Positions 10,209-37,703 of a stretch of 55,169 nucleotides of DNA are shown one piece after another. The stretch spans positions 1 through 55,169 of the forward strand of contig JAUIEW010000005.1 in NCBI GenBank assembly GCA_030429365.1, given 5' to 3'. Source of the DNA: Phycisphaerae bacterium (GTDB lineage: Bacteria; Planctomycetota; Phycisphaerae; UBA1845). Numbering within the stretch: position 1 is the stretch's first letter; the number at the start of each line of letters is the position of its first letter. Under the pieces are notes generated by a model that had not been told where the DNA came from, did no database searches, and was given only the letters and a program-made list of their open reading frames with translations. Position numbers and translations under genes: made by a program.

Positions 10209-12431
10209 CGGACCCAGGAAACAACGAATCCATGCAAAAATGGAAAACCATTCTAAAGCGGGTCATGCGCGTACTTGCCCGAATGCCCGTCCTCATCCTT
10301 CTGATACTGACGTTTGTCGTTGGGTACAGTTTTAGTTCTGCCGTCAGTCGCAATCGGGCTCCAATATCGGTTGACGCAAACGCCGATCGTGATGCCAATG
10401 ACATTGAACAAATCTGGACGTGCTCGATGCATCCCCAAATTCAACTGCCTGATCCAGGCAAATGTCCAATTTGTGGAATGGATCTGGTGCTCGCAGACGA
10501 ATCACCGAAGCACGCATCGAACAAAGGGAAGACAAAAAAACAACCGCTGTATGCGTGTTCGATGTTCTGCCTACCGCCCCAGCCCAATCCCGGTAAGTGC
10601 AAAATCTGCGGGATGGACATGGTGGAAGTAGACGTCGAATCAGGCGCAGACGATGAATCCAGCGTGCAGCGTTCTTTGAAGCTGTCGCCTACCGCGCAGA
10701 GCCTGGCGGAGATCCAAACTCAACCGGTTGCACGAGAATTCGTCAACGCAGAAATCCGCATGGTGGGAAAAATAGATTACGACGAAACGCGCCTCGGCTA
10801 CATCACCGCGTGGGTTCCCGGTCGTCTGGAACGGTTGTACGTGGACTACACCGGTATTCCAGTCAAGAAAGGCGACCACATGGCTTACCTGTACAGTCCC
10901 GAGTTGGCCACCGCGCAAACCGAACTGCTCCAAGCGCTAGAGCGGTCTGGTGGTTCCACCGGACAAGGGTCACTGGTGAATAAACGGGCCGCAGATTGGG
11001 TGGAAGATATCCGCGACAAGTTCCGTCTCTGGGGATTGACAGACGAACAGATCGCCGAGATCGAGGCCCGTGGCACCGCGTCGGATTACATGACGATCTA
11101 CGCGCCGATGGGCGGCATCGTAATTCACAAGACTGCGGTCGAGGGCATGTACGTCGAAACCGGTTCTCGCATTTATACCATTGCTGACCTCTCCCGTGTG
11201 TGGATTCAACTTGATGCTTACGAATCCGATCTGCAATGGTTGCGCTATGGGCAGGAAATCGAATTCGACACTGAAGCGTATCCGGGCGAGACGTTCACCG
11301 GTCGTATTGCCTTCATCGATCCGATCCTCGATGCGCGAACGAGAACCGTCAAGTTGCGAGTTAACGTAGAAAACCCAGACGGTCGTCTGAAACCTGAGAT
11401 GTTTGTCCGCGCGATTGTCCATTCTAAAGTCGCCGAAGGCGGACGCGTGGTTGATGCGGAGCTGGCCGGTAAATGGATCAGCCCGATGCATCCGGAGATT
11501 ATTAAAGACGAACCCGGCATGTGTGACGTATGCGGTATGCCCTTGGTTCGGGCTGAGTCTCTGGGATTCGTATCGGTCGAAACAGGGGACGCGGTTGCTC
11601 CGCTGGTGATCCCAGCGTCAGCGCCGCTAATTACTGGTAAGCGTGCCCTGGTCTATCTTGCTGTGCCCAACGAACCCGGAAGGTTTGAAGGGCGCGAAGT
11701 CACGCTCGGTCCGCGCGCTGGCGACCACTACATTGTGCTCGAACACCTGCGCGAAGGCGAGCAGGTTGTCGTGAATGGAAACTTCAAGATCGACAGTGCG
11801 ATGCAGATTATCGCCAAGCCGAGCATGATGAATCCCTCGGGAGGTGGGCAACCGCCAACGCATCAACACGGTGATACACCGCCACCCGATTCTGCCGAAA
11901 CGACCTTGCCCCCTCCACGCGCAGCTGTTTCGGGAACGGTTGAAACGGTTCCAAGCCCAGCCGCGTTTGTCAATCAGCTTGAGCCGGTTTTCCTGGCATA
12001 CCTGCAGTTACAACGAGCGCTCAGTCGTGACGCACTCGACGATGCGATCGTCGCAGCGAAACAGATCGACTCGGCCGCAGAACAGGTAGATATGGGGCTC
12101 CTTGTCGGAACTGCCCACAATGCTTGGATGAAAGAACAAGAGCAGTTCTGTTCGCTCACCAAACAAATCGCGACATCATCATCGATCGAAGACGCCCGTT
12201 TTGGATTTGCGATGTTGTCGGAGAGCATGATCGTGATCGCCAAGCGATTTGGTTTACCTTCAACGCTGCACCGATTCCACTGTCCGATGGCCTTCGATGG
12301 TCGGGGCGCAGACTGGCTGCAAACGAAAGAGAAAACGGAGAACCCGTTCTTTGGGTCGGCGATGTTCCGTTGCGGTAGTCGAGAGGAAACGATTGCGCCC
12401 TCCAGCCGTATCGACAAGGACGGAGGCGCGC

Positions 12432-12445
<14 letters not shown>
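10205..12445 (+). CDS. CusB-like RND periplasmic adaptor with three heavy-metal-binding motifs and DUF3347-like C-terminus
   Basis: CSMHPQIQLPDPGKCPICGMDL, CSMFCLPPQPNPGKCKICGMDM, SPMHPEIIKDEPGMCDVCGMPL; C-terminal FHCPMAFDGRGADWLQ...NPFFGSAMFRCGS. Confidence 0.88.
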
Positions 12446-16358
<3,913 letters not shown>

Positions 16359-17328: not shown

Positions 17329-19425
17329 TTGCTATTCTCATTGCTCGGGTTTTGTTGCGGGGGAGTGTCCGCTTCCGCGAGGAGAAGAATATTGTTTTTC
17401 GAACGAAGCAACAGAGTCACTGGAATCTTTCGTAAGTCATGCGTGCTCGTGATCGCTGGGCTCGTCTTCGCATCGGCACCACAGGCCCGCGCAGAATCTG
17501 TGGCTCGGCAGTGGAACGAGGTCATGTTGGAAGCGATCCGCAATGACTTCGCCCGGCCGACCATGCACGCCCGAAATCTTTTCCACACGTCGATGGCGAT
17601 GTACGACGCGTGGGCTGTCTATGGCGAAAACGAACTCCCGTATCTCACCAATGAGATGCACCCACCCAATCCACTTCTCGTACCTGGTGGTCCAACGGCG
17701 ATCAACGTGCAAGCCGCTCGCGAAGAGGCGATCAGCTACGCGGCCTATCGCGTCCTTTCATGGCGGTTTGCAAACTCACCTGGAGCGGGGATCAGCCTTC
17801 CCTTGTTCGACGGCTTGATGGACTCATTGGGATATGACCGGGACATCACCACGACCGGACTTAACACGCCAGCGTCTGTCGGGAATCGCATTGCACAGAA
17901 CGTGATCAACTTCGGATTGGCGGACAATTCGAACGAAGTGAACGATTTTGTCAATCAGTTCTACTTCCCCGTGAATTCACCGCTACTTCCGGACCTCCCG
18001 GGCAATCCAAATCTCTTCTTCCCTAATCGATGGCAGCCGCTGTCGCTTCAGTTTTTCATCGACCAAAGTGGGAACCCAATTCCATTTGGATACCCCGAAG
18101 CGCTCAGTCCCGAGTGGGGTCAGGTTTCCGCCTTTGCCCTCAAGCCGTCTGATCTCACAATCTACAACCGAGACGGGTTCGATTACTGGGTCTATCACGA
18201 TCCAGGTCCGCCACCGATGCTGGGAACGGCCACCGAAGCTGCCTACAAGGCTGGGTTCGAGCAGGTCGTTGAGTGGTCGGGTCTGCTCGTTGACACCAAC
18301 GGCGCAACCATCGATGTCTCACCTGCGTCGCGGGGAAACAACACGCTCGGTACCAACGACGGGAGCGGATACGCCCTCAACCCGGTAACCGGTCAACCTT
18401 ACGCGCCGCAGGTTGTGCCAGCCGGTGACTACTACCGTATCCTCGCCGAATTCTGGGCTGACGGTCCGGACTCTGAGACCCCGCCCGGAACTTGGTATGT
18501 GTTGGCCAACTATGTGTCCGACGCCCCCGGACTCCAGAAACGTTTCCAGGGACAGGGTCCGGTGTTGGATGACCTCCAGTGGGACGTCAAGCTCTACTTC
18601 GCTTTGGGAGCCACCATGCATGACTCGGCTGTCGCCGCTTGGGGCGTGAAGGGTTGGTACGACTACATCCGCCCGGTTTCGGCGATTCGCTACATGTGCG
18701 ATTTGGGTCAATGCAGCGATCCCCAGGCAGCCTCCTATCACCCGCAGGGCATCAACCTGAAACCAGGTGCCATCGAATTGGTCACACTGAACACCACCAC
18801 TGTCGGTGAGCGGCATGAGCACCTCGCAGGCAACGAAGGCAAGATCGCAGTGAAAGCCTGGCGAGGACCGGACTACATCGCCAACCCCGACACGGACACC
18901 GCTGGCGTCGGTTGGATCCTTGCCGAGAACTGGTGGCCCTACCAGCGACCAAGTTTCGTGACACCCCCGTTTCCCGGATACGTCTCAGGGCATAGCACGT
19001 TCAGTCGAGCGGGGGCCGAGCTAATGGCGCGATTCACCGGTTCACCCTACTTCCCGGGCGGACTCGGCGAATTCCTCTGTCCGCAAAACGAATACTTGGT
19101 GTTTGAAGATGGTCCGAGCGTCGACGTGACCCTGCAGTGGGCCAGCTACTACGACGCCTCCGACGAGTGCAGCCTCTCGCGGATTTACGGTGGTATCCAT
19201 CCACCGGCTGACGATGTTCCTGGTCGTCTGATGGGCGCCGTCATTGGTGGCGACTCGTTCAAGCTCGCCGAGGATTACTTCGAAGGGACCGCATTTGAGG
19301 CGGTCAAGGATTGCTTCACCGGACCTGGTGAAAAAACCACCGGGGAATGTGTCCGAGCTGACCGAGATGGCGACTTGGACGTGGATCTCGAGGACTACAG
19401 CGCGCTCATGCTTGCGAACGAGTAA
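17329..19425 (+). CDS. Secreted vanadium-dependent haloperoxidase/PAP2-like protein with dockerin-like C-terminal Ca-binding segment
   Basis: SVARQWNEVMLEAIRNDFARPTMHARNLFHTSMAMYDAWA; active-site-like PFPGYVSGHSTFSRAGAELM and YGGIHPPADDVPG; tail RADRDGDLDVDLEDYSAL. Start uncertain (TTG at 17329 or later). Confidence 0.8.
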   Translation: MLFSLLGFCCGGVSASARRRILFFERSNRVTGIFRKSCVLVIAGLVFASAPQARAESVARQWNEVMLEAIRNDFARPTMHARNLFHTSMAMYDAWAVYGENELPYLTNEMHPPNPLLVPGGPTAINVQAAREEAISYAAYRVLSWRFANSPGAGISLPLFDGLMDSLGYDRDITTTGLNTPASVGNRIAQNVINFGLADNSNEVNDFVNQFYFPVNSPLLPDLPGNPNLFFPNRWQPLSLQFFIDQSGNPIPFGYPEALSPEWGQVSAFALKPSDLTIYNRDGFDYWVYHDPGPPPMLGTATEAAYKAGFEQVVEWSGLLVDTNGATIDVSPASRGNNTLGTNDGSGYALNPVTGQPYAPQVVPAGDYYRILAEFWADGPDSETPPGTWYVLANYVSDAPGLQKRFQGQGPVLDDLQWDVKLYFALGATMHDSAVAAWGVKGWYDYIRPVSAIRYMCDLGQCSDPQAASYHPQGINLKPGAIELVTLNTTTVGERHEHLAGNEGKIAVKAWRGPDYIANPDTDTAGVGWILAENWWPYQRPSFVTPPFPGYVSGHSTFSRAGAELMARFTGSPYFPGGLGEFLCPQNEYLVFEDGPSVDVTLQWASYYDASDECSLSRIYGGIHPPADDVPGRLMGAVIGGDSFKLAEDYFEGTAFEAVKDCFTGPGEKTTGECVRADRDGDLDVDLEDYSALMLANE

Positions 19426-23115: not shown

Positions 23116-24015
23116 TCACTGCGTCACGAAACCGGTGCCAGGACACAGTATCACGCTGGAATCAGCGCTCAACGGAATGACATCGTAATCGTATCCGCTT
23201 GCTACAGCGATTTGTCGTAAAGTAAGAAACGCATCGTAAGAATCGGGCAAAACGATCATGTAGAGAAAGTTTGAGTCCCGGGGTGCGAGTTCACGCAAAC
23301 TGGTCCACCGCGCCGAGTCGCCAAGGCGTTCGTCGACGTTCATTCCAGCGCCCCGGCGCAGTTTGACCTGCGTGCAACCGTTTCCTACTTCAACGTAATC
23401 GATGTCCCTTCTTACGGCATCAATCACGGGCCGGAATCCGCCAGATTCTCCGTCGAGAATAAATAGACGATCTGATGACAACACCAGATGGACCGGCCGA
23501 AGCTGTGTTGCTTTTGACAGTGGTAGCCGCGCATTGAGTTTACGCACGGACTGTTCCCTTTGAATTTCCTTTTCCAACTGTTCCACTTCTCTCTTGAGAT
23601 CACCTGTTCCTTTTTCAACCACCTGCATTTTTTGGTCGACCGTATTCTGTTTGTCTTGCATTTTCGCAAGTGCGTCCTTGGCTTCTGCGAATCGGGTTTT
23701 CGCTGCCTCAAGATCGGCCGCGATACGAGTCAGGATTGTGGTCCATTTGGTGTCGGGCTCGGTCACGAGGTTTTCCAAGTAAACAGCCAGATCGAGCTTT
23801 CGTGCTGTCTCGGCACTGGCCTCATCGAATTCCGTTTGCAGGGACACCATGTGGGCTGCTGATTTTGAAGTTTGCTGTGTCACTTGCCCCGCTTGCCCAC
23901 CGGTCAGAAGGCACAGCAGAATTGCAATGAACATAATTCCACCGAACATGTTGGTGATTGTGTCCAGCATCATGTCCATGCTATCGTCTGCTTGAGAGCC
24001 TCGACCTCGCATCAC
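23116..24015 (-). CDS. MotB/ExbD-like single-TM coiled-coil protein (second of pair)
   Basis: N-terminal MDMMLDTITNMFGGIMFIAILLCLLTG then coiled coil; start overlaps previous stop by 4 nt. Confidence 0.7.
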   Translation of the reverse strand: MMRGRGSQADDSMDMMLDTITNMFGGIMFIAILLCLLTGGQAGQVTQQTSKSAAHMVSLQTEFDEASAETARKLDLAVYLENLVTEPDTKWTTILTRIAADLEAAKTRFAEAKDALAKMQDKQNTVDQKMQVVEKGTGDLKREVEQLEKEIQREQSVRKLNARLPLSKATQLRPVHLVLSSDRLFILDGESGGFRPVIDAVRRDIDYVEVGNGCTQVKLRRGAGMNVDERLGDSARWTSLRELAPRDSNFLYMIVLPDSYDAFLTLRQIAVASGYDYDVIPLSADSSVILCPGTGFVTQ

Positions 24016-24836
24016 TTATTCTCCGACGCGAGTTCGTTGTATTGAAGAACCGTCCAGTCTTCCGGTAACAAGTCGAGCCCTTGAGCAAATCCAAGATCGT
24101 CGATGAGTTCCCACATGGCGTCTCGCAGTTCGACGCCAGACGGCTTCAAGACCAACAGGACATAGTGTTGTTCCGCAGAATAACTCCGTAGCCACTCACG
24201 GACCGCTTCCATGCGCAGGGTTCGATCCATATGTGCCAGCGTAATGACACCCTGTTCGGATCCAACAACGCCGACGCGAATGGCATTGGCCGATGCGACG
24301 ACCAGTAATGGGGATTTGGCTGCATTTTGGTTGAGAAAGTACGTGAGGCCGCGGTTCGCGCGTACAGCCCGAAGTTCCGCAACGAGCCGTTCCTTCTCCT
24401 GCTCCAATTCCGCTACTTTTTCGAGTTTGGCGCGCGTTTCGTCGTCCGAAACCGTTTCCTTTAGCGACTCAAACCCAGCCCGAAGCTCCTCATCAGCCTG
24501 CTTAGTTTGTTTGTACAGATCCGAAAGTTTCTGTCGTTGGGCAGCAACGTGCTCGATATCGACGCGCGAATCTCGCGATTCATCGAGCTTCTTTTTCGCC
24601 CGGGCAATGCGTTCATCTAACTGCTGCTCTTCAATTGTCACGTTTTGCAGATCTTGCTCCAGCGCTTCGGCGGCTGAATCCGTTTCGACTGCCGGTGGTG
24701 CGCTTACCATGGCGTTGGTCAAGTGAAGGCACATAAGCATGACAATGAGCAAGAGTATGCCAATCACCGCGGTCATGATGTCCTGGAACGCGAAGAAGCT
24801 TACCGGCTGCTCTTGTTGATGTCGTGATCGGCGCAC
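24012..24836 (-). CDS. MotB/ExbD-like single-TM coiled-coil protein (first of pair)
   Basis: GTG at 24836 just after the upstream stop; SFFAFQDIMTAVIGILLLIVMLMCLHL (cf. MotB ADFMTAMM-type entry) then coiled coil. Confidence 0.7.
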   Translation of the reverse strand: MRRSRHQQEQPVSFFAFQDIMTAVIGILLLIVMLMCLHLTNAMVSAPPAVETDSAAEALEQDLQNVTIEEQQLDERIARAKKKLDESRDSRVDIEHVAAQRQKLSDLYKQTKQADEELRAGFESLKETVSDDETRAKLEKVAELEQEKERLVAELRAVRANRGLTYFLNQNAAKSPLLVVASANAIRVGVVGSEQGVITLAHMDRTLRMEAVREWLRSYSAEQHYVLLVLKPSGVELRDAMWELIDDLGFAQGLDLLPEDWTVLQYNELASENK

Positions 24837-24840
24837 CTCA

Positions 24841-25734
24841 TCAGCCCCCCGAGTCTTCCAGTATACGAAGCCGATTGACAATGTTGCGTTGGCAGTACTC
24901 TTTGCAATCGTCAAGAAAGCCTTCCTCAGCCCGGCGCACGAACGTAAGTATCAACTGCACGCCAAGAGCACCGAGCAGACCTTGCAGGGTGGTTTCAAAA
25001 GCTACGGAAAGGCCGCCAGTAACTTGTTGCAGGGCGGGTTTGATCGTCTCGATATCGTTCGCAGCCGAAAGCACTTGTCCGAACTCCCCAATGGCAGCCG
25101 AAAGCCCAAGCACCGTGCCGATGAAGCCAAGCACCGGGATCGCCCAAACCAATCCTCGGACGACGGTATAACTCGAATCGAAAATCGCTTCGTCGGTGTT
25201 GGCTTGAGATTCGAGTACTTCTCCAACATCACTGATGCGCCTCATGTTGCGGAGATTGGAAAGCGCGAGCTGCACTCTGTTGAACAGGACAAAATCACGA
25301 GGCCGATCGACGCGCTCAAACATATCCTCCAACACCGATTCCACGTTCAAAAGCGAGAGCGTAAACGTCGGATCATCGGGAATAATGCGTATCCTTAGCG
25401 CTTTTCTTTGAGCTCGAAGCTTGAGCACTTTGCAACCGAGTATGAGCAGCGACCATGTCGTCAAAACCACAATGGCCCGGGGCACCCAACCGCGTTGCGT
25501 GAGCGATTGGGTGATGTAATGGTCCGGGATCAGGGCAAGCCCGCCATAGACCGCAACTGTGATGATCCCGGCAAGTACGATCACGGTAAGCTGAATCGGT
25601 TGCGTGTACCTACCAGCCGGCAGGCCGATTCGACGCTCGGGATCGACCCGATGAAACGCGAGCTGGGGCATGTGGCCCGATTCTTCATAGGCATATTGTT
25701 GATTGCGGTTTTCGCGCGGCATTGGTGGTCTCAA
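24841..25734 (-). CDS. MotA/TolQ/ExbB-family proton channel-like protein
   Basis: 297 aa; FDSSYTVVRGLVWAIPVLGFIGTVLGLSAAIGEFGQVL...GLSVAFETTLQGLLGALGVQLIL. Confidence 0.85.
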   Translation of the reverse strand: MRPPMPRENRNQQYAYEESGHMPQLAFHRVDPERRIGLPAGRYTQPIQLTVIVLAGIITVAVYGGLALIPDHYITQSLTQRGWVPRAIVVLTTWSLLILGCKVLKLRAQRKALRIRIIPDDPTFTLSLLNVESVLEDMFERVDRPRDFVLFNRVQLALSNLRNMRRISDVGEVLESQANTDEAIFDSSYTVVRGLVWAIPVLGFIGTVLGLSAAIGEFGQVLSAANDIETIKPALQQVTGGLSVAFETTLQGLLGALGVQLILTFVRRAEEGFLDDCKEYCQRNIVNRLRILEDSGG

Positions 25735-26036
25735 TCGAGTAGCTCAACATCCATGGGGTCGTCGTCGGCGCGTGCAAATGACGGCGGCACGGGAGGTGGC
25801 TGCGGTTCTGCGGCATTGGGATGAACGGTTCTTGAGGCGTCCACTTGAGCCCCCGTATCCTCCAGGTATTGCCATCGAGGCAATTCGTGAAGATGGAGCC
25901 ACGTTTGCTGATCGGCAGAAACGCGGTGCAATGGCCCGATCAATCCTTGATTGGCCTGCCGGGTGATTTCGTCGGCTGTAAATGGACCGCTGATTCGTGC
26001 GCGGTACTTGACAAAGAGTTGGCCATTCTCATTCAT
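25731..26036 (-). CDS. GYF_2/DUF4339-like small protein
   Basis: QLFVKYRARISGPFTADEITRQANQGLIGPLHRVSADQQTWLHLHELPRWQYLE fits the GP-x-S/T-x-x-E-I...G...W pattern. Confidence 0.65.
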   Translation of the reverse strand: MNENGQLFVKYRARISGPFTADEITRQANQGLIGPLHRVSADQQTWLHLHELPRWQYLEDTGAQVDASRTVHPNAAEPQPPPVPPSFARADDDPMDVELLD

Positions 26037-26042
26037 CGAGTA

Positions 26043-28985
26043 CTACTCCGAGTTGGCGGCTTGCATCCAGGGCGGGCGCTGAAACAGCGGCGTTCCAACT
26101 GCGGGACGGTTACCCGGAACTAACGTTACTTCTCCATTCGATACATGTCCACACGGCTCAAAATCGATCCGACCGGAATCGTTGAGACGAACCACGCCGA
26201 CTTCGCCGTCAGGAGTACCGTCTAGGATCACATGCGTATCGTCGTTTGTCCAAACGAGTCCAACAGGATTCAAAGGCTTCGCCCGCAAATGCAGCTTCTG
26301 AAAAGCTTCGTCCGATTGCTTGATCAAGGACTCTAAGTTCGGAAGTTCATTTAACATTTCGCTTGCGGTCCGGCTGGCATTCTTGACGCTCCCGGAATTG
26401 ACATGGGGCCACGGAACTTCGTCGAGCGGCCACCGTCCGTACTCGGCTTGTTCGACCTTCACGAGGAACTCGCCAAGCTCCGTAAAATCAAGATTCTGAG
26501 GCCAGGTTTCCTGAAGGTGCCACGCAATCAAGATTTGAATCATTCTGAGTCGCAAGACAACATTGATCTTTCGACCGTTCGCAATCTTGCGGGCAAGGCT
26601 GAGGTGCGACGTCCGCCATTTGGATGGCCCAATACCCCTGAGGAATCTAAGTGCATTCTTCGCATAGGTTGCGATGGGGGCATCTTCGATTCTTGGTTTC
26701 GGCTGAACTGGGACTCTTTCCTGATCGCGCTTCTCCGGATCGTCGAGGCTTTCCAGGGATTTGATGACACCGGTCATTCGGCAAAGCGAATCGTCGCAAC
26801 TCATTTCACCCAAAAGATAGAATTGCCGTCGATCGCCATCAGTTGCCTCGATCGTCGCTTGTTTGAGTCGAGCCATCCACGAAGGTGGCTCAAAGAGTTG
26901 TCGGAGCCGTGACGTTCCCGAGTCCTTTGGATCGAGCGCCTTGACGGCATGCTCAAAATACCCAGTCAACTGTTCGCTGAAATCCTTGCCGATCACCGAG
27001 TCAACGGTTCTTGCTGCTTGTGTCGTTGCGTCGAGACACGCTTTGGCTTTCTCGGCATTGTTGACACCGATATCCCCGTTCCACGTGTCTACAAGGGTGT
27101 TCCAATCGTGCAGTGTCCGCCACGCCGGCTCGTTCCGAAGCACCTTCTGCAATTCAACCGCTTCGGGGCGTTCCGGAAAGGTGTCGACGAACGTTTGTTC
27201 CGCTATCGCCAGCCTGGCGAGATCCGGAAATGAGTCGCGAACGGACCCGAGCGAATCGCCAGCCTCATTCAAACGGGATTTCCGATCTCTTCTGGCGCTT
27301 AGGTCTTCACGAAGCTTGAGAAGCTGTTCGCCAACGGCAGAGATGAGTTCATCCGACACGTTTTTTGTTCGACGCAATTCATCATACTGCCTGGCAAGCT
27401 GTTCGAGTCTTTTGACAGCCTGTTCATAGGGGAGCTCGCTCTCGATAATCTCGCGATATTCGTCGTTGAGTGTCGTAAACCGGGTTTGAAAATCCTGGTC
27501 CAGCCCAGATTGATGATCGCGTCTGGCTTTTGAAATTGCGTTACGCAGATTGGCGACATCGAGCTTCTCATCCTCGAAACGAGCCAGCCTTCGAGCCTCG
27601 TCCAACACGCTGTCTATTGAATGGTCGAGCGGATCCGCCACTGCGATTTGATTGATACAGGCTTCGAGATTGCTTCGCCTGGCTGCGTCCTGTTTAACCA
27701 GCGCATCGTGCTCTTCGCGCCGAGTAACGATCTCCGCTTCATTCCAGAGTTCGGGTTTGCCCCGCTGCAATTCATCGAGCAACTTCTGCGACTTTCTCGA
27801 ATCTCCGCTTTCAAGTGCGGTGTCAAGTTGCGTCACCCAGGTGCCCAACGTTCGTGCCCGATCCTGCTCTCCGAGCCACCACCAGACGGATGTGCCTGAA
27901 ATTGCAATCGCTGCGATAACGGCAAGTGCGATGAGCCTCGTGCGGACCCGGCTCTTGGACGAATGTTCGTCTTGGCGCGAACGATAACGAGACACCAACG
28001 CCTTGGGAATCTCCCGTTCGGCACGCTTCAATCGTTCGTAGAGCGGCTCAAGCACATTCGCCGGTTCGCCCGAGTCCAGCAATTCTTCCAACCGCGCGAG
28101 ATCGTGTTGGAACTGGATCGCGGACTCGCGTTCGTTCTCGCGCTTGTGCCACCAGTTCAGTGGCTCCTTCGCGACATCGGTAATTGCGCTCGAAGGGGAA
28201 AACCGCGTGTCGCCGCTGAGTTGTTCCCATTCGACGACAGCCGTTCGCATCGCCGATTCGTTTTTTGCCGCATGCGCTTCGGACATTGCATTCGATATTC
28301 TTGCAAACTCAATCATGGCATGCTGATACTTGAGCTTGTGTACGGACTCCCCGAGGACCTGCAGCAACCGGTCAGGAGGTTGAGAAATCCACTCGCGGTG
28401 CATCAACTCGGTCTGGAGCGATTCAAGCGCCTTGAAATTCCGATCGGAAATCGCAAGTTTGGCCTCTTTTTCGATCTCGGTCAGCCGATAAGCTTCCAAC
28501 TCGCCTCGTTGCGTTGGCCAAGCCGTGTTGTCCGGATCTAATTGCTCAAGCGTGAGCAGCATTTCAAGTCGGTCAGCGATTGGCGCGCTGGCCAGAGCCA
28601 GCATTCTGTATTTTGCAAGATGCGGAGCAAGCAATTCTTCGCGATCGTAAGCGTCACAAAGATCGGCGGCTGCGTCGAGGTCGGGACGCGGAACATCGAC
28701 GATGCCATTGGCTTTGCAAAGCCGATCCCAGGAGCCCCATGCGTATCCCATTGAAAGCTGAGCGACCGTCTCGATGGCATCGGGCTGCTGTTCAACCAAC
28801 CGCAACGCTTCGCATTGCAAACCCTTTCGCAACCAGGCATGCGCTCGATCGATCCGCTCATTTGCCGCAACAAGCGCAACCCGATACGCCCCAACAAGTT
28901 CGTTCAACTCGGTGGTTGATGCCAAATCAGGCTGCGCAACAATGCGCCTGATCTGTCGGCACAGGCTGTTCAGGGAACTGTTCAT
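26043..28985 (-). CDS. 980-aa helical/coiled-coil protein with one internal TM helix
   Basis: Long heptad-rich helical segments on both sides of TM RLIALAVIAAIAISGTSVWWWLG; 4-nt overlap with upstream gene. Confidence 0.75.
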   Translation of the reverse strand: MNSSLNSLCRQIRRIVAQPDLASTTELNELVGAYRVALVAANERIDRAHAWLRKGLQCEALRLVEQQPDAIETVAQLSMGYAWGSWDRLCKANGIVDVPRPDLDAAADLCDAYDREELLAPHLAKYRMLALASAPIADRLEMLLTLEQLDPDNTAWPTQRGELEAYRLTEIEKEAKLAISDRNFKALESLQTELMHREWISQPPDRLLQVLGESVHKLKYQHAMIEFARISNAMSEAHAAKNESAMRTAVVEWEQLSGDTRFSPSSAITDVAKEPLNWWHKRENERESAIQFQHDLARLEELLDSGEPANVLEPLYERLKRAEREIPKALVSRYRSRQDEHSSKSRVRTRLIALAVIAAIAISGTSVWWWLGEQDRARTLGTWVTQLDTALESGDSRKSQKLLDELQRGKPELWNEAEIVTRREEHDALVKQDAARRSNLEACINQIAVADPLDHSIDSVLDEARRLARFEDEKLDVANLRNAISKARRDHQSGLDQDFQTRFTTLNDEYREIIESELPYEQAVKRLEQLARQYDELRRTKNVSDELISAVGEQLLKLREDLSARRDRKSRLNEAGDSLGSVRDSFPDLARLAIAEQTFVDTFPERPEAVELQKVLRNEPAWRTLHDWNTLVDTWNGDIGVNNAEKAKACLDATTQAARTVDSVIGKDFSEQLTGYFEHAVKALDPKDSGTSRLRQLFEPPSWMARLKQATIEATDGDRRQFYLLGEMSCDDSLCRMTGVIKSLESLDDPEKRDQERVPVQPKPRIEDAPIATYAKNALRFLRGIGPSKWRTSHLSLARKIANGRKINVVLRLRMIQILIAWHLQETWPQNLDFTELGEFLVKVEQAEYGRWPLDEVPWPHVNSGSVKNASRTASEMLNELPNLESLIKQSDEAFQKLHLRAKPLNPVGLVWTNDDTHVILDGTPDGEVGVVRLNDSGRIDFEPCGHVSNGEVTLVPGNRPAVGTPLFQRPPWMQAANSE

Positions 28986-31267
28986 TCAGCGTTCCCTTTG
29001 TCATCATCTGAATTGCCATCGTCAGTTTCAGATTTGTTTGTTGCGGTTTGATCTGGCCTTGCTGGTATCTTGAATACAAGTTCGATGATCGGAAGCCCAT
29101 AGGCGTTTCTTATCACCAACGTTTCAGTGAGCTTGTCACCTGACCGAATATGCGAATTGATGCGACGCAGTATTTCAAGAATTGGTAATTCTCCTGCCTC
29201 TTCCCCGGGCAAGTTCCTCGATATTTCTACGTCTATTTGGTTTGGCTTACCATTCTTGAATGTGGACTCGGATATCGCAAGGACAGTTTCATCACTAGAT
29301 CGCCCAAACCGAATGATCTTCTCCGACTCCTCTTTTCGTTCCTCTTCACTGAATTCCCATGACCACTCATTCTCAAAGTGCGGAATGCCGATACTCCAAT
29401 TCTCAAATTTGCATTCATTGGCAGACCAGTCGCTTGGGATCGAGTTATTCTTACTGGCAGGTTCCGCAAAAGTTAATTCGCACGGAGAGGATGTTATAGA
29501 CGTGCCAAGCCACATAATGGCAAGCGCGTAACCGGGTCGAGTTGGATGCTTGAAGTAGAATCCGCCTAGCGGCTTGGGTGTAAGACTAGGTGATAACTTC
29601 AATAACCTAAGTTTGATTGCACCCGCTTCAACGGCCTTAATATTAACAAGCGACTTTGGCGGCCCTACGTTTGACATCGAAGTGGTCTTGTCCGCATATA
29701 ATTCGGCGCCTTTGAATTTCAGCACTCGATCTGTCACAGGGCTACCATTTGCATGAGCCAACGAAATGATTTCGAGTTTTCGATTAGCCGACATCCATTC
29801 AACCGGAATATCCGCTATCCCGTCGCTTGAGAAAATCGCTGGCGCAAAGCTGAACTGTTCCGGTTCTATTTCATCCTGCTCTGCAATTGCAATTGTAATT
29901 GGCGAGTTTACGTCCTTGCTCGCTGTGGGGGATTGCGCGTTCTCGAGCCGCACTTCCAGTTCTGCCTTCTCAATAGATTGCACGTCAGGCTGGTCGTCCT
30001 TGGCGATCGATTGAGTTGCCCGATCATCTGCCAATGGAATCTCGCCCTCATTTTCTTCCATGTGAATCCTGGTGGGCAGGGTGGCCACCGATGGACTGTT
30101 TGTGGATGCGTCTTCAACGTAGATGCTGGAGCCGGATGCCGATTCCTGCGCATTGTCGCCAACTTCACCGTCATCCTCGCGAACTTCGGCCATTTCCAAT
30201 TCGGGTTCTGAATCGGGTACCGACGATCGAAATGCGATCGCACCAATAATGAGACCGAGAAGGAACGCAACCGCGCTGCATGCGGCAATGACCCGCTTGT
30301 CATTCTTGACTAGGATGACCGAACTCGGTGCCGAAGCAGTACGCTCCTTCGAGAGCAACTCCTCCGACAACGCCATCTGATCCAAGGCATCATCTCCACC
30401 AGGAGCCGCTTGAGGCTTCGGGGCGACCAGTTTCTGCGGTGCCGCCTGCGTCGGTTTCTTCAACGCAACAACGCGGCCGGCTCGCGCGTTGTTTGCATAT
30501 TCGCATTCGGGCAAACTTGTTCGTGCCACAAGGTCGATGGTGTTGGAATCCGTCATTCCGGGTATGGCCATCGGGCTCTCGGTCGACGAAGGGACACACC
30601 GCAATGCACATGTTATCCCCGGATCGACTTCGCCCGTGACCGCAGTCGAGAAAGTCAGTTTCCACCTGGCGGCCGGCGGTACGAGAGCTGTTACCTCATT
30701 GAGAAGCTCGAGAATGGGCCAGTTTTCGGGATGCCTTAGATAGATTGGCCCGCCCGGGCGCTTGATCCACGAATGCAGCGGCCAACCGGCCCAACCTGCA
30801 TCGCCCGTTAGTTTCTGCCACGTATTGCATGGACGCGCGACAACCTCTTGATTCGGCAAACCCTCGACAGCTTCGAGCAGCCGCGGTTCTTCAGCCCACT
30901 CCTGACGAAAGAGCCTGCTCTGCCCAAGTAGTGAGGCCGGACCTGCAGGACTTAAGGATTGCCCCGGCAATACAATGTGGTGCGCGATGCGATTCGAGCG
31001 TCCTGTGTAATCCGGCGAACAGGGTGCTATGCGCGACAATATACGCACGGTAGAATTGCCTCGCTGAAGAATCGCGAAGCGATTAACGATTCGCGAACTT
31101 TCACCGCCGGTTCCTTTTGACTGCGAGCTTTGACTATAACCCGAAAGTCGTTCCAGCGACTCGACCAGCCATGCAGGCATTCCCTTGGTGTGGGCAACAG
31201 TTGTAAAACCTCTGGTTCCCGGCTTCAGACCGCGAGGCACCGACGTGTGGATCAATTCCATGATCAT
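28982..31267 (-). CDS. GTPase-associated protein 1-like (GAP1-N2-like) with TM helix
   Basis: N-terminus MELIHTSVPRGLKPGTRGFTTVAHTKGMPAWLVESLERLSGY...RIAPCSPDYTGRSNRIAHHIVLPGQSLSPAGPASLLGQ; TM VIAACSAVAFLLGLIIGAIAF. Confidence 0.75.
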   Translation of the reverse strand: MIMELIHTSVPRGLKPGTRGFTTVAHTKGMPAWLVESLERLSGYSQSSQSKGTGGESSRIVNRFAILQRGNSTVRILSRIAPCSPDYTGRSNRIAHHIVLPGQSLSPAGPASLLGQSRLFRQEWAEEPRLLEAVEGLPNQEVVARPCNTWQKLTGDAGWAGWPLHSWIKRPGGPIYLRHPENWPILELLNEVTALVPPAARWKLTFSTAVTGEVDPGITCALRCVPSSTESPMAIPGMTDSNTIDLVARTSLPECEYANNARAGRVVALKKPTQAAPQKLVAPKPQAAPGGDDALDQMALSEELLSKERTASAPSSVILVKNDKRVIAACSAVAFLLGLIIGAIAFRSSVPDSEPELEMAEVREDDGEVGDNAQESASGSSIYVEDASTNSPSVATLPTRIHMEENEGEIPLADDRATQSIAKDDQPDVQSIEKAELEVRLENAQSPTASKDVNSPITIAIAEQDEIEPEQFSFAPAIFSSDGIADIPVEWMSANRKLEIISLAHANGSPVTDRVLKFKGAELYADKTTSMSNVGPPKSLVNIKAVEAGAIKLRLLKLSPSLTPKPLGGFYFKHPTRPGYALAIMWLGTSITSSPCELTFAEPASKNNSIPSDWSANECKFENWSIGIPHFENEWSWEFSEEERKEESEKIIRFGRSSDETVLAISESTFKNGKPNQIDVEISRNLPGEEAGELPILEILRRINSHIRSGDKLTETLVIRNAYGLPIIELVFKIPARPDQTATNKSETDDGNSDDDKGNAE

Positions 31268-32535
31268 GATCCGCCTCCACTTGAAGCTCGCGATGCACTG
31301 GCCTGAGGACCCAAATGCGGTTCAACGTAACCCAGCGCACAAGCAATCGGCGCGAGCACCCACTTGGGACGAATGTCTTGCGGACGATAGCCTTTTTTCA
31401 TCGCATCGCCATCGCGAAATTCCTCTGCCGGCCCTCCGGTTGCGCTAACCGGAACGTAAATCACGCGGCTGAACGACGATTCAGCGATCGAAACGACTTC
31501 AGGTGAAGTCCTTGACAGCATCGCTCGGCAGTCCTTCGACGTGTATCCAATCGAATTGAAATCGAATTTACCGACGCCATTTGAATCGGCACGTACAGGT
31601 TCGTCTCCATTCAGCTCACGACCGAGGAGCGGTGCCCACACATCGGCCTTTGCAAGGACGATCATCAGAAGCGCTTTGTGTTTCTCATTGGTAGGCAGAC
31701 CAAGCGACTTTCGGATCCGCACGATGGTTTCGTTGAGCACAAGCTCCTGACGAAGGGGACTGTCGTCGCAGTTATCGACTGGCTCTCCGGCAAGCGATCG
31801 AATTTGTGCACGGATACGTGGGTCCTGCGTCGGATCGAGTAGAAAGAAAACGATGTCCGAATGCGTTAAGTGTTCGGTCACCGGCTCGCGCATCGATTCG
31901 TTTCCAGGCAAGAAGTGCTCACCCGCGTTGTCGTATAAAACCAGTACGTGTCCACCAGCGCCATTGGCCCCAGGATTCGTAATCGTGAATTGAAAGGGCT
32001 TGGGCAAGGTAAGTACCTGCTCATCGATCCGGACAGAATGATATAGGCGCGAACTTGCTACGTCGGTTTTCTCAAGGCGCACTGGCTTGTCGGGCCGAGA
32101 TGCAAGAAAGAGTTTCTCCTCTTGTTCGTGGAGCAATGTGTTAGCCGCCGGGTCGGCATCGGCAATCGTCCAGCCGAGCTGGGGCAACGCTCGACGCAAT
32201 CCGTTGGTCATCGCCGCGAGGTAGTATGATTTGCCCGACGAAGGTGCCCCCACGATCGATATCGTGACGAGGGGAAGTTCCAGAATGGACCGGGGGATCT
32301 GCAAGTGACAACGCGGACAGGCAACGTCGCGGCTTTCCGATCCATTTGGATCGATCGCATGCCCGTTAGAAGTGAATCGGCTTGGCAGGAAACGAACAAA
32401 CGCATCGTCACCCAGCACCGGATCGCCGCGGAGCGAGTCGTGCGAAGCGATAAACACGCAATCCCACGGACGAAATCGGTGCCAACAGTGCGGGCACCGA
32501 ATCCACTTTCGCAATTTCAGTTTCTTTTTGGCCAC
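31264..32535 (-). CDS. Zinc-ribbon P-loop GTPase (double-GTPase/TRAFAC-like, partner of GAP1)
   Basis: N-terminal CPHC...CPRC; Walker A GAPSSGKSY; switch/Walker B-like VLVLYDNAGEHF; NKxD-equivalent LAKADVW. Confidence 0.8.
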   Translation of the reverse strand: MAKKKLKLRKWIRCPHCWHRFRPWDCVFIASHDSLRGDPVLGDDAFVRFLPSRFTSNGHAIDPNGSESRDVACPRCHLQIPRSILELPLVTISIVGAPSSGKSYYLAAMTNGLRRALPQLGWTIADADPAANTLLHEQEEKLFLASRPDKPVRLEKTDVASSRLYHSVRIDEQVLTLPKPFQFTITNPGANGAGGHVLVLYDNAGEHFLPGNESMREPVTEHLTHSDIVFFLLDPTQDPRIRAQIRSLAGEPVDNCDDSPLRQELVLNETIVRIRKSLGLPTNEKHKALLMIVLAKADVWAPLLGRELNGDEPVRADSNGVGKFDFNSIGYTSKDCRAMLSRTSPEVVSIAESSFSRVIYVPVSATGGPAEEFRDGDAMKKGYRPQDIRPKWVLAPIACALGYVEPHLGPQASASRASSGGGS

Positions 32536-32563
32536 TTCATCAAGCTCGCTGTGTATTGCAGAT

Positions 32564-33547
32564 TTAATCGAGGATTACAGAGTCCGATTTCCAGTTGTCT
32601 CCGCCCGTGGGCCAAAGTGAACAAAGGTAGCTGGATCTCAAGAATACGCCAAATGCATTCTGCGCCTCAACCCAGGCAAGTACGGTGAATTTCGATGTAT
32701 CAGCACTAAACGTCACGATGACGTCGCTATCGTTAAATCGCGGAAATCGAGCCGTCGACGGGGCTTTCAGCCTTCTCTTGACGAATTCCTGCGACATGAT
32801 GTAAGCATCCAATTTGAGCTTTTCCGCTGCCGCCTCGCGCTGACGGCGTTCACGTTCTTCGGCTGCACGTTGTGCCGCAGCCCTTCGCCGAGCCTCAGCC
32901 GCCTCGCGCTTACGTCGCTCTTTTTCCTCACGCTCTTTTCGCTCGGCAACGAGCCGCGCCTTTTCCTTCTGCCTAATTAGTTGGCCGTCAAATAGTACCC
33001 AACCCTCTTTGAGTTTCTGCTGATATTCCTTTTCGCGTGCCTCGAGTTTTGATCGCGTCATTGCAACCGTGTCGGCAAGCTCCAAGATTTGAACGCTTTC
33101 CAAAGTCGTCACGTCAAGTTCTGTCGATGCAGTTTCCAGGTCGCTTCGCGCGCCTGAAAAATCGTATCTTTCGAATTTCGATTGCGCAGAATTGACTCTG
33201 TTATCGACAAGCGTCGCAAGCCTAGCACTTTCTTCTGCATCCCTGTGATCTGCGGCTTTGTTGAAATAAACTATCGCGGAAATTGCCAAGACAGCAACAC
33301 CAATCATCGCCACCGTCAGCCGAACAATCCAATTCGGCGATGAGCGAGTGAGCATCGGCGCCGAGTCAATGTCAACTTCGGAGTACACAGTATCGTTTAA
33401 AGAACCGTCCGCGCTTTCATGAGTGTCCCCAGGCACTGTTGCAAGCGTCCCGCACAATGGGCAACGGAAACTACGCCCCGCAGCACTTAAAGGAGCGCGG
33501 AGTTGCTTCCCACAAACGGAACAGTCAAAGGAACATGTTTCACTCAT
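32564..33547 (-). CDS. Zinc-ribbon / TM / charged-helix protein with small C-terminal domain
   Basis: CSVCGKQLRAPLSAAGRSFRCPLCGTLATVPG; TM VRLTVAMIGVAVLAISAIVYF; KEREEKERRKREAAEARRRAAAQRAAEERERRQ; SQEFVKRRLKAPSTARFP...VEAQNAFGVFLRSSYLC. Confidence 0.75.
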   Translation of the reverse strand: MSETCSFDCSVCGKQLRAPLSAAGRSFRCPLCGTLATVPGDTHESADGSLNDTVYSEVDIDSAPMLTRSSPNWIVRLTVAMIGVAVLAISAIVYFNKAADHRDAEESARLATLVDNRVNSAQSKFERYDFSGARSDLETASTELDVTTLESVQILELADTVAMTRSKLEAREKEYQQKLKEGWVLFDGQLIRQKEKARLVAERKEREEKERRKREAAEARRRAAAQRAAEERERRQREAAAEKLKLDAYIMSQEFVKRRLKAPSTARFPRFNDSDVIVTFSADTSKFTVLAWVEAQNAFGVFLRSSYLCSLWPTGGDNWKSDSVILD

Positions 33548-34097: not shown

Positions 34098-35087
34098 ATG
34101 AAGAGTGCCGCACATTCCAGAGATACGAGCGATCCACTTTCGACCATGATTGAAGCCCTTGGGCTGGAAGTGGCCGCGATCAAGAAATCGGGCGGCTCCA
34201 TATCAATTGAGCTAATGGCTGGCACGTTCGTAGCACTCACCGGCGGGCAGTACCTTTACAAGTTCCCACTGACTGAAGAACTCCAGTTGCGGGACGACAC
34301 GCCGATCCGCATCCAGTTCAGACAGCAGGAAGTCGATGGCACCGTCGTTTCGCCGAAGGATGGCATTCTCGTCGTGGCCTTAGAGGAAGACCTCGGCCCG
34401 ATGCTTGCTCGCGTTCGCCTGTTCGCGGACGACTCTTTCCTTGTGCAGCGACTGAAGGACCGGCTCGGTGAAGTCCAGTCGGGTGAGGCCCAGTTCAATG
34501 CAGCGTCGGCGGATCGCGTAATCGAACAGGGCGAAATTCAGGCGTGCAGCGCCGACATCGCGGATGAGTTACTTCACGGCCAACCTCTGTTAAATGAGGT
34601 GCAAGTCGAGGCGGTTCGACAGTCGCTGGCCAGCAATGCCACGTTCGTATGGGGACCGCCGGGTACCGGCAAGAAGACAGCTCTTGCCCGCATCGTTGAG
34701 GGGCACTACTTCGCGGGCAAGTCGGTCTTGTTGGTCTCGAACTCGAATATCGCAGTAGACACCGCATTGGAGAAGATGGCCGACCGATTGAAATCCGACG
34801 AGGGGTTTCAATCCGGTTCTGTGATTCGCTTTGGCCCCGTCGTCAAGGAAGAGCTTGCTTAGAAGTACGGTGATCAAGTCGTATTGGATAAAGTCGTTGC
34901 CCGCCTATCGAAGAGTATCCAGCAGAAACTCGCGGTGGTCCAGTCCGAGGCAGCCACGGTGGCACGGGATGCCGACCACTTGCGTACTGCGATCGCTCAG
35001 CACCAAGAAGTCGCAACGTTCGCCGAAACGTTGCCCCGTCGGTGCGAACGCGATCGCGCACGCCCCACCGGTTCAATTCCCATTTGA
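34098..35087 (+). pseudogene. Decayed UPF1/AAA_11-like SF1 helicase N-terminal part with in-frame amber stop
   Basis: EVQVEAVRQSLASNATFVWGPPGTGKKTALARIVEGHYFAGKSVLLVSNSNIAVDTALEKMADRL; TAG at 34860-34862, same frame continues KYGDQVVLDKVVARLSKSIQQKL to 35087; no downstream helicase motifs. Confidence 0.75.
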
Positions 35088-35456: not shown

Positions 35457-37490
35457 TCATGTTGTTTCAAATATGTCCGGCCTATCGGTGTGTGGTCGCC
35501 AGCGACCTGGACGAGCGGGCATTCCCTTGACCTTAATATAGGCGTCGTTCAATCCTCGCTCCGCCATTGCCCGCCCGGTTCGAAAAGCCTTGTTTGCAGT
35601 GGTTTCGGGCAACCCCAATCGGTTCCCTGCCTCCCGAATGCTCAGGCCACCAACAACCAGTTCAGCCATTGTCTTCGCATAGCTGATGCGCTTGGGCACC
35701 TTGAAGAGGTCCACCGCCATCGAAAAGGAACTTACGGACGCAATGTTGGTCAGAGAATCGTCACCGGTCCGGTCGTCCAGCAGCTGTTGCCACTCTTGGG
35801 GGAGAAGACGAAGAATGTTCAGGGTGAAATGTGCCCGCAGATGTAACGAGTCGCCATCAAATCGATGATATGGGACCGCACGTAATTTCCCATCGATCAG
35901 CCGTTTTAGGATGGGGGCAGCCTTCGAGTCAAAATCATCCAGAAGTTCACTTTGAATCGTTTGAAGAAGGTGCTGAATTTCTTCATTTGAGGGTTTTGGA
36001 ATTTGTCGTTGATTGCGTTCGACAAGGAAGTCGATTTCCGATTTGTTTTCCTGCAGTTCCTTTTCGCGGCTACGCAGTTGGGCTACCAACTGAGGAATAT
36101 CACCTCCTTTCTCAATCGCCTTTGTGAGGTTCGTGCAATTCCGCTGCAACTCGGTTTCCTTGCTTCGCATCAATGCGATCCGCCGATCAACCTCGGGAAT
36201 TCCTTGCTCAACAAGCTGGATAACCCGGGCACAAAGTGCATCAAAGCAGCCCTCCTGTGCCACCAGCGCCTCGACAATTGATGCCGCGAGATTGCGGTGA
36301 ACCGTTTCCAATTGAAGGACACAGCGGTTCCAACACCGCTCACCATTCTTGCGGTAGATGTTGCTTGGATGACGTGAATTGGCGCAACGATATATGTTCC
36401 CCTGGCGGTACATTTTCGCATCGCAAACGCCACAGAAGAAAAATTCTGAAAGTGCCGTGCGGCTGTTCCGATTCGAGGAGTGTAGCGGATTGCCGTTGCC
36501 TGAACTTGGATTGGTGTTGACGTTGCGTTGATCGATCGCCCGGTTCGCTGCGTCCCACAGGGACTTGGGTAGGTGGGCCAAATGCGGCATATCTCGATAG
36601 AGGATTTCATCGTCAGGTGATGGAACTTGAACGCTCTTGCCGAGCTTATATTTCTTCACGCTCCGACGCTTGCGGTACGCTTCGACGCCGTAATAGATCG
36701 GGTCACGAATCAGCCTGATGACGTTTGCTTCAGTCCATTGGGGTACTCGTGAGCGTGCGCTTTTTGGGAACCCCGACTCCGTAAGGTATTGAGCAATCAC
36801 CCACGGCATGTTGTTGCTCGCGCACGTTTGGAAAGCGTGTTCGATGACTGGTGTCCAACGAGCGTCCTTCTGGTCGCGGAACGGTCCTTTGGCGGGTTCT
36901 CGATCTGTCGGCGGGACGGTGGGAACACGAACGTAACCCGGCTTCACTGCACCCACGGCATAACCATCGCGCCAGAGTCCTTCCATGGCGCGAACGATGC
37001 GCTTCCGCGTTTCGGCATTATCCATTTCCGCTTTCATGGAAGCGAAATGGCTGCCCATGCGCCAACGCTCTTCATCTTCGTTTGTGTCGATGTGGCTGTT
37101 GATGGCAATAACTCGCACACCCGCATCGACGGCCGCTTCGATTAACCCCATCGCCTGCGTGGAGTTTCGATACAGGCGCGAGAGGTCTTCAGCGACGATC
37201 ACATCGCACCCACCCGATTCGATGAGTTCCCAGACCTGGTCAATGCCGGGGCGATGCGCATGTTCACCCGAGAGCGCTTCGTCATTGAGGAGGATAAGCT
37301 CCGCGTCTTCGAGACCCATCGTTTCAAGGTGTTTGCGGCACATGGCAACCTGGTCACCAATTGATCGAGGCGATTGCTGGTCGGTGCTGAACCTAGCGTA
37401 GATGACGATGCGGATACGGCGGCGTGATGATGTCGTTGCGATCGGGCACGCAAGCAAAAGAGGTGGTTTCGCAGGACAGGGTTGGCCCAT
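35457..37490 (-). CDS. Large serine recombinase
   Basis: RIRIVIYARFSTDQQSPRSIGDQVAMCRKHL resolvase domain, recombinase domain, zinc ribbon FFCGVCDAKMYRQGNIYRC, coiled coil. ORF opens at 37691 but ATG at 37490 is nearer the catalytic domain. Confidence 0.88.
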   Translation of the reverse strand: MGQPCPAKPPLLLACPIATTSSRRRIRIVIYARFSTDQQSPRSIGDQVAMCRKHLETMGLEDAELILLNDEALSGEHAHRPGIDQVWELIESGGCDVIVAEDLSRLYRNSTQAMGLIEAAVDAGVRVIAINSHIDTNEDEERWRMGSHFASMKAEMDNAETRKRIVRAMEGLWRDGYAVGAVKPGYVRVPTVPPTDREPAKGPFRDQKDARWTPVIEHAFQTCASNNMPWVIAQYLTESGFPKSARSRVPQWTEANVIRLIRDPIYYGVEAYRKRRSVKKYKLGKSVQVPSPDDEILYRDMPHLAHLPKSLWDAANRAIDQRNVNTNPSSGNGNPLHSSNRNSRTALSEFFFCGVCDAKMYRQGNIYRCANSRHPSNIYRKNGERCWNRCVLQLETVHRNLAASIVEALVAQEGCFDALCARVIQLVEQGIPEVDRRIALMRSKETELQRNCTNLTKAIEKGGDIPQLVAQLRSREKELQENKSEIDFLVERNQRQIPKPSNEEIQHLLQTIQSELLDDFDSKAAPILKRLIDGKLRAVPYHRFDGDSLHLRAHFTLNILRLLPQEWQQLLDDRTGDDSLTNIASVSSFSMAVDLFKVPKRISYAKTMAELVVGGLSIREAGNRLGLPETTANKAFRTGRAMAERGLNDAYIKVKGMPARPGRWRPHTDRPDIFETT

Positions 37491-37682
37491 GGGATTCGAC
37501 GAATCGCTCGGCTGGATACCGATTTCAAAGCCCCACCGCGAAGCCCCATCATGGTGTTGGCCCTGATAGCGCGGCGTTGAACCAAAATAGACCAGAGACA
37601 ATACTGCCAAAAATAACTTGATTGCGGGTGCGTTCATTTCGCAATCCTCCATTGCGTTGGAGGCGCCCGCAGACGGATTGTC

Positions 37683-37703
37683 GTTTGGCACAGTGTGCCA
37701 AAC
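37683..37703. repeat. Perfect 21-bp palindrome upstream of the serine recombinase
   Basis: gtttggcaca-g-tgtgccaaac. Confidence 0.75.

Follow-up and report, generated by a model that had tools for sequence, protein, structure and literature searches.

Does a run of same-strand genes in a planctomycete contig encode one membrane machine in which a GTPase governs an ion-driven motor? The window (the whole stretch of DNA analysed, 55,169 nucleotides of Phycisphaerae bacterium contig JAUIEW010000005.1) had been given an initial annotation that joined a zinc-ribbon GTPase and a GAP1-like protein to a MotA/ExbB-like channel and two MotB-like subunits in an eight-gene membrane operon. Here, we describe the operon, its distribution and its likeness to known systems.

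The operon and its GTPase/GAP1 core

The ORF list of the window gave eight open reading frames, all on the minus strand, from 33547 to 23116. The gene junctions first annotated hold, with four 4-nt overlaps (31264/31267, 28982/28985, 25731/25734, and 24012/24015) and one near-zero junction (24836/24841, provided that g7 starts at GTG 24836); g1 and g2 are 28 bp apart, and g4 and g5 are 6 bp apart. Transmembrane (TM) segments were predicted in g1, g3, g4, g6, g7, and g8, in agreement with the earlier count of at least six TM proteins and a membrane location. All eight genes and their strand were recovered as annotated, and only the membership of g1 (32564..33547; 327 aa) was not conserved. This zinc-ribbon protein, with one TM segment (71-99) and a coiled coil, had a homologue in the near-identical genome L067 only; it was rejected as a core part and is treated as accessory.

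The zinc-ribbon GTPase assignment was borne out for g2 (31264..32535), which carries N-terminal CxxC-type zinc-ribbon motifs and matched DO-GTPase2 (PF19993) at 28.4 bits in a Pfam profile search (cut-off, 27), as did 13 of 15 g2 homologues. Its motifs are Walker A GAPSSGKS, DNAGE, KxD, and S(A); P-loop residues G96, G101, and K102, together with D202-E206, K296, D298, and S364, are invariant in 15 homologues. The GAP1-like assignment of g3 (28982..31267) is likewise sound (GAP1-N2 [PF20013], 82.7 bits; GAP1-M [PF20014], 24.4 bits; cut-off for the latter, 24), with both domains on the cytosolic side of a TM segment (323-351) and a variable ectodomain beyond it. The GAP1-N2 protein gene adjoins and overlaps the DO-GTPase gene, and such adjacency is the mark of a GAP1-N2-type DO-GTPase system.

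The cytosolic half of GAP1 is near-constant and the periplasmic half hypervariable; neighbouring paralogues can share 96-100% identity in one half versus 4-25% in the other. For the N-terminal residues 1-240, dN/dS was 0.01-0.05; for the ectodomain, which changed fastest in almost every close pair examined, it was 0.2-0.5, with dS largely high or at or near saturation. Positive selection on the ectodomain is undemonstrated, since dN/dS is below 1 and dS partly saturated, and these values point to replacement or recombination instead.

The third core gene, g4 (26043..28985), encodes a 980-aa one-TM scaffold with a cytosolic helical solenoid and a periplasmic helical and beta part, and it was present in nearly every relative with enough sequence. 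It was aligned across 57 sequences, and its AF2 model (mean pLDDT, 85.5) matched nothing in the PDB at an E value of 0.001 or better (Foldseek). Next to it, g5 (25731..26036) encodes a small GYF-domain protein of the GYF-only form, which scored 18.3 bits against GYF_2 (PF14237), below the cut-off, with orthologues reaching 81 bits. In relatives, the GYF module is fused to proteases (PrsW, trypsin-like), a kinase, a T2SSE ATPase, or TM regions, and PilM/PilO-like genes can replace the motor beside the GTPase core.

The motor and its linkage to the core

The channel subunit, g6 (24841..25734), belongs to the MotA/TolQ/ExbB family, as first proposed (MotA_ExbB [PF01618], 39.8 bits); it has 3-4 TM segments, and its channel threonines T207, T248, and T249 are invariant in 14 homologues. 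A PDB profile search with g6 returned no direct match. Downstream, g7 (24012..24836) has a TM segment with an invariant FQD, a coiled coil, and a C-terminal domain, and g8 (23116..24015) has a TM segment with an invariant LD, a long helical stalk, and a C-terminal alpha/beta domain. In both, the single TM segment is N-terminal, and the Asp is invariant in both families (31 and 36 homologues, otherwise ~27% identical), aligning Asp on Asp when the two are compared (hhalign E, 1.8e-23). Neither matched the Pfam MotB, ExbD, or OmpA models, and PDB profile searches gave generic coiled coils only. Resemblance to ZorB/MotB/ExbD was weak (hhalign E of 0.02-0.04 to ExbD and MotB, in the expected segments), and Foldseek with g8 (PDB, BFVD) returned nothing at an E value of 0.001 or better, with TolR 5by4 at 0.18 suggestive only. 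Position, TM segment with invariant Asp, mutual homology, and this weak resemblance suggest that g7 and g8 are MotB-like paralogues; the earlier claim of two MotB-like subunits keeps its single TM, invariant Asp, and mutual homology, while no profile or fold comparison reached significance.

The g6 subtype is bimodally distinct: among 392 planctomycete genomes, 20 scored at least 330 bits and all others 239 or less. GAP1-N2, found in 8% of planctomycete genomes, occurs in 16 of the 20 genomes with the subtype versus 15 of the 372 without it (P ~1e-16), so that the homologues co-occur rather than lie scattered, an outcome on which the initial annotation had staked its proposal. Every copy of the subtype adjoins MotB1 and MotB2, nearly all adjoin g4 or the remaining core, and the subtype is almost confined to the GTPase/GAP1 neighbourhood. 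The GTPase-GAP1-g4 core recurs in Planctomycetota, Lentisphaerota, and Kiritimatiellota, and the linkage persists despite changed gene order (L072, L087, L089, L094, and L125). With a recurring core, a nearly exclusive MotA subtype, and a linkage that outlives rearrangement, the cassette is a real system.

The cassette is also mobile and sporadic; 1 of 40 family members carries it, and in same-genus (sister) genomes it sits in unrelated flanks. In the window, a large serine recombinase (35457..37691, minus strand; Resolvase and Recombinase domains) lies just before the point (37829) where synteny with the sister genome G405 restarts. No plasmid or phage carriage was found, bar one weak, distant Rhodococcus plasmid match. 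PADLOC detected no defence-island enrichment (114 flank versus 114 control proteins), a crude scan because housekeeping helicases and kinases also match, and nucleases and other canonical killing domains were absent from the motor cassettes. These last two results, the lack of a significant MotB match, and the ectodomain dN/dS below 1 were counted against the reading preferred below.

Known systems and rival explanations

GAP1-N2-type DO-GTPase systems were described by Kaur et al. (2020; PMC7159879). They share with the cassette DO-GTPase2 with zinc ribbon(s), GAP1-N2, GAP1-M, TM-bearing partners, planctomycete GYF-trypsin and GYF-TM-rich proteins, and variable modules; their FNIII, tubulin, HSP70, and kinase themes were not seen in the cassette. 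A MotA/ExbB/TolQ, TolR/ExbD, PilM, or stator component is nowhere mentioned in the published text, and relative to it the cassette adds the constant and variable GAP1 halves and the motor. Since FNIII repeats are a described component and had no Pfam match among the operon proteins, the cassette is filed as a variant rather than a typical member. A conflict role for GAP1/DO-GTPase is a computational prediction only, with no experimental study found in the literature searched. The open-access text searched also yielded no description of a GTPase/GAP1 and motor combination, in line with the earlier remark that no experimentally described system of this composition was known. Both halves are known families.

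Zorya shares an inner-membrane MotA/MotB-family motor, an accessory operon, and weak ZorA/ZorB profile similarity, whereas the cassette has two MotB-like subunits and a GTPase and GAP1 in place of nucleases. The Zorya features compared were a ZorC/D/E-type effector, the ZorA tail, and a peptidoglycan-binding ZorB (PMC11890865); no ZorC/D/E, long ZorA cytoplasmic tail, or OmpA/peptidoglycan-binding domain was detected in the operon proteins. With NCBIfam scores far under the cut-offs (ZorA_2, 15.9 bits against 100; ZorB1, 15.5 bits against 400) and no effectors, Zorya membership was rejected; at best, Zorya is analogous in function. The 5:2 motors TolQR, ExbBD, and MotAB share the MotA_ExbB core with conserved TM threonines and a single-TM partner with an invariant Asp; the cassette differs in its paired MotB-like paralogues, helical stalks of 100+ residues, and tie to a GTPase core.

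In Myxococcus, MglA controls gliding and type IV pili alike, and GltJ carries GYF and zinc-ribbon domains. The Agl-Glt machine (AglRQS, MglA) shares with the cassette one TolQ-like and two TolR-like subunits, a GTPase, and GYF and zinc-ribbon adaptors. A surface-motility or adhesion motor of that sort, its GTPase positioning and switching a TolQR-type motor with such adaptors and its ectodomains acting as adhesins, is an unlikely explanation. The count of MotA-like AglR and MotB-like AglQ and AglS, the latter two with a conserved Asp, is matched by g6-g8 (PMC9389320, PMC3169522), and the alternative partners of the GTPase core (PilM/PilO-like genes, a GYF-T2SSE ATPase) recall the dual control by MglA; however, AglQ and AglS carry clear ExbD domains (PMC3169522), which g7 and g8 lack. 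The GTPase is of another family (DO-GTPase2, with no MglA match in Pfam or PDB searches, leaving an MglA-type GTPase unsupported), Glt models matched no operon protein, and the very sporadic, mobile cassette has no recognisable Glt outer-membrane genes and no conserved outer-membrane or adhesin gene. For the cassette, a conflict role is more likely than a motility role.

Another regulated envelope machine (Tol/Ton-like remodelling, protein or polysaccharide secretion, or envelope stress), with GAP1 ectodomains sensing diverse ligands, is distinctly improbable; the envelope-spanning architecture, the Pil/T2SS-like alternative outputs, and GYF adaptors carrying PrsW and trypsin-like proteases would suit it, but hypervariable ectodomains and mobility are unusual in housekeeping envelope systems, and GAP1-N2 is in just that small minority of planctomycete genomes. 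That the GTPase-GAP1-g4 and MotA-MotB-MotB sets are separate functional modules merely travelling together is very unlikely, for although some genomes have the core but no motor (the complete genomes G167 and G307; most Lentisphaerota searched) and related triads exist without the core, this MotA subtype almost never does, and the genes overlap tightly and stay linked through changes of order. Among culturable carriers, Rhodopirellula solitaria, Stieleria tagensis, and Aporhodopirellula aestuarii have the motor-type cassette, and Oligosphaera ethanolica has the core but no motor.

A proposed GTPase-switched envelope machine

In the reading we prefer, and hold at close to even confidence, the cassette encodes a mobile inner-membrane machine, switched by a GTPase and driven by ions, whose target of recognition lies in the periplasm or on the cell surface. 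Its receptor would be GAP1, the exchangeable ectodomain sensing and the conserved cytosolic GAP1-N2/M half engaging DO-GTPase2. The GTP cycle would act through the g4 transmembrane scaffold, with GYF adaptors, on the MotA/TolQ-kind motor, probably a MotA pentamer round an axle made of two distinct MotB-like chains. The long periplasmic stalks of these chains may then perform mechanical work or open a route for ions. The gene set, its conservation and exclusivity, the invariant channel Asp, receptor variability, mobility, and output swapping were observed here; physical coupling, 5:2 stoichiometry, ion flow, signalling direction, and biological role are inferred.

A role in recognition or conflict would suit the patchy mobile distribution and the hypervariable ectodomain, and, because outputs are exchangeable as well, conflict (phage defence or interbacterial) would be the likeliest use. 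A bolder form is doubtful: a G-protein-switched rotary ion motor, the first of its kind, in which exchangeable receptors and a GTPase gate a MotA motor whose axle is a MotB heterodimer, serving as a mobile, receptor-swapping immune or kin-recognition device of the PVC envelope whose core can alternatively drive a type-IV-pilus-like inner-membrane complex.

The cassette may be a novel type of device that recognises and responds to something at the envelope. The conserved channel Asp and Walker A are simple, decisive mutation targets, and the constant and variable GAP1 halves give a direct handle on what GAP1 senses. Should the coupling be real, G-protein switching would be joined to an ion motor of the 5:2 type in a setting other than the known gliding machine, and motor-based envelope systems would range beyond Zorya, Tol, Ton, and gliding.

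Operon structure and the conserved core

The window makes up the entire contig C408 of its genome. The initial annotation's eight minus-strand open reading frames (ORFs; 33547 to 23116) were borne out, with 4-nt overlaps at 31264/31267, 28982/28985, 25731/25734 and 24012/24015, other gaps short, and transmembrane (TM) segments predicted in six of the eight proteins, as expected of the membrane-rich operon described. Pfam searches upheld its GTPase (DO-GTPase2, 28.4 bits), GAP1 (GAP1-N2, 82.7 bits; GAP1-M, 24.4 bits) and ExbB-like channel (MotA_ExbB, 39.8 bits), all above curated cut-offs; GYF_2 was below threshold for the small fifth protein (g5) and strong in its orthologues. "GAP1" stands for GTPase-associated protein 1, a name that does not denote a proven GTPase-activating protein. 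The GTPase motifs (P-loop, DNAGE, KxD and S(A)) were invariant in 15 homologues. Nearly every full-length copy of the scaffold g4 measures about 960-1020 aa; its model (mean pLDDT 85.5) shows a helical solenoid in the cytosol, a single TM and, in the periplasm, a portion of helices and beta structure, with no significant match among PDB folds.

GAP1-N2 (PF20013) was found in 31/392 Planctomycetota genomes. Regions around these matches were examined together with 80 loci from a GTPase-alignment search of GTDB genomes, taking the longest ORFs as genes in relatives (start sites may be wrong, and some genes that overlap others were lost); absence near contig ends means little because many relatives are MAG contigs. 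The suspected gene neighbourhood proved conserved, GTPase-GAP1-g4 being a recurrent core in Planctomycetota and beyond (Lentisphaerota/Victivallales, Kiritimatiellota and records labelled Verrucomicrobia). About 40 loci had the arrangement GTPase-GAP1-g4-(GYF)-MotA-MotB1-MotB2; L139, its MotA ORF missing from gene calls, counts as motor type. Several loci had altered gene order yet kept the linkage, with the motor upstream on the opposite strand (L072), upstream (L087, L089 and L125) or inserted between GAP1 and g4 (L094). Two Thermoguttaceae/Planctomycetales loci had one MotA followed by two successive MotB1-MotB2 pairs (L087:4582-9270 and L089:4829-9245). F00, a TM, Gly/Pro-rich, vWA-domain protein of about 370 aa, adjoined the cassette in 13 loci (including L036, L059, L065, L110, L134, L142 and L143).

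Scores from a MotA profile run against all 392 genomes were bimodal, with 20 genomes at or above 330 bits and all other matches at or below 239. MotB1 and MotB2 adjoined MotA in 20/20 high-scoring genomes, and g4 or the remaining core lay near MotA or on a broken contig in nearly all (G171 was the exception; G364, G348 and G056 were divergent). GAP1-N2 occurred in 16/20 of these genomes versus 15/372 others (P about 1e-16), confirming co-occurrence. Lower-scoring MotA relatives were stand-alone MotA-MotB-type clusters without the core. Such MotA and MotB-like clusters, without GTPase or GAP1, were seen in many planctomycetes (L154-L162; MotA about 440-660 aa in most, with an N-terminal zinc ribbon in L154). 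GTPase-GAP1-g4, with or without the motor, is a conserved system.

Motor subunits and alternative outputs

MotB1 (g7) and MotB2 (g8) are paralogues along their full length (hhalign E 1.8e-23), each with within-family mean identity of about 26-28% and an invariant Asp at the TM start (FQD in 36/36 g7 and LD in 31/31 g8 homologues). In MotA (g6), Thr207 and Thr248/249 are invariant within the conserved TM region. In the g8 model (mean pLDDT 84), the TM helix runs on into a pair of long helices, and the C-terminal domain is alpha/beta; its best biologically sensible PDB match, Escherichia coli TolR, was not significant (E 0.18). In hhalign comparisons, the Asp of the MotB plug region aligned with that of g7, and ExbD with the C-terminus of g8 (E 0.02-0.04), a likeness that is suggestive only. 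By analogy with the 5:2 family (PMC9389320), a MotA pentamer may surround a g7:g8 heterodimer.

Complete genomes G167 and G307 carried a motorless core. In Lentisphaerota, the core was followed, with no motor, by PilM_2-like (609 aa; 58.7 bits), PilO/T2SSM-like (288 aa; weak match) and, read by eye, perhaps PilP-like (217 aa) genes downstream of g4 (L073, L079, L080, L082, L090, L098, L104 and others). Two Lentisphaerota genomes had their MotA copy in a second, complete motor-type system, the system first detected there being motorless. GYF proteins were fused to trypsin (L124), PrsW protease (L101) or T2SSE ATPase (L033), a kinase-GYF protein lay upstream in L102, and other loci had TM-rich GYF forms. 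A second, motor-less GAP1-N2/DO-GTPase system type was seen in L055-L064 and the window's own genome (L066; G000:C270:7369-7677).

GAP1 variability and cassette mobility

Three genomes of one genus had two GAP1 genes per cassette, flanking the GTPase gene on either side. Within a genome, paired residues 1-240 were 91-100% identical (mostly 96-100%), but only 4-25% identical beyond about residue 420; the GTPase-side half of GAP1 is thus constant and its outer half exchangeable. Between two of these genomes, dN/dS was 0.01-0.05 for GAP1 1-240, 0.04 for MotA and 0.07 for the GTPase, with much of the ectodomain at or near saturation. The ectodomain diverged fastest in nearly all close pairs of motor cassettes compared (83% versus 90-98% for remaining parts between the window and its near-identical relative L067); the outlying MotB2 of L134-L142 may reflect paralogue choice. 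Lentisphaerota GAP1 alongside the alternative output was about 300 aa, without an ectodomain. Proteins with signal-peptide-like N-termini, in part mutually unrelated, lay between GAP1 and g4 (L094:13710, L133:4084, L134:13574 and L142:13601) and are possible detached ectodomains.

The cassette's MotA occurred in 1/40 genomes of the window's family. Cassette flanks in three same-genus genomes had no protein in common, and further genomes of that genus lacked the cassette. Within the window, synteny with sister genome G405 resumed at 37829, just past a large serine recombinase (35457-37691), and the matching G405 contig had no cassette beside the breakpoint; L067 carried both cassette and a related recombinase. 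The cassette was not found in sequenced plasmids and phages, bar one weak distant plasmid match. Between operon and recombinase lay an apparently truncated AAA_11 helicase-like N-terminal fragment (34098-34862) weakly similar to Mokosh MkoA. Elsewhere, the window encoded outer-membrane efflux, CusB/HlyD (heavy-metal-binding) and RND pump genes (8601-16358; first gene 83% identical in sister genome G406) and a gene that weakly matched domains of the vanadium-chloroperoxidase type (DUF6851 and VCPO_2nd; 17329-19425).

Candidate function

The gene set fits a receptor, switch, transmitter and PMF-driven output, in which the GAP1 ectodomain would be the receptor, the GTPase the switch, g4 the transmembrane transmitter and MotAB the output. 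The main rival is a motility motor resembling Agl-Glt, the Myxococcus gliding machine, where GltJ has a zinc-ribbon/GYF architecture and MglA a dual role (gliding and type IV pili). A 1 TolQ:2 TolR arrangement is common to Agl-Glt and the cassette motor (PMC3169522, PMC9389320). Neither a nuclease nor any other canonical effector was present in the cassette, and its flanks gave no defence-island signal; both points count against a simple defence label. The available text on GAP1 systems (PMC7159879) names no MotA, ExbB, TolQ, TolR, stator or PilM component. The system's fast ectodomain replacement, mobility and modular outputs fit the conflict-system logic put forward there for GAP1 systems.
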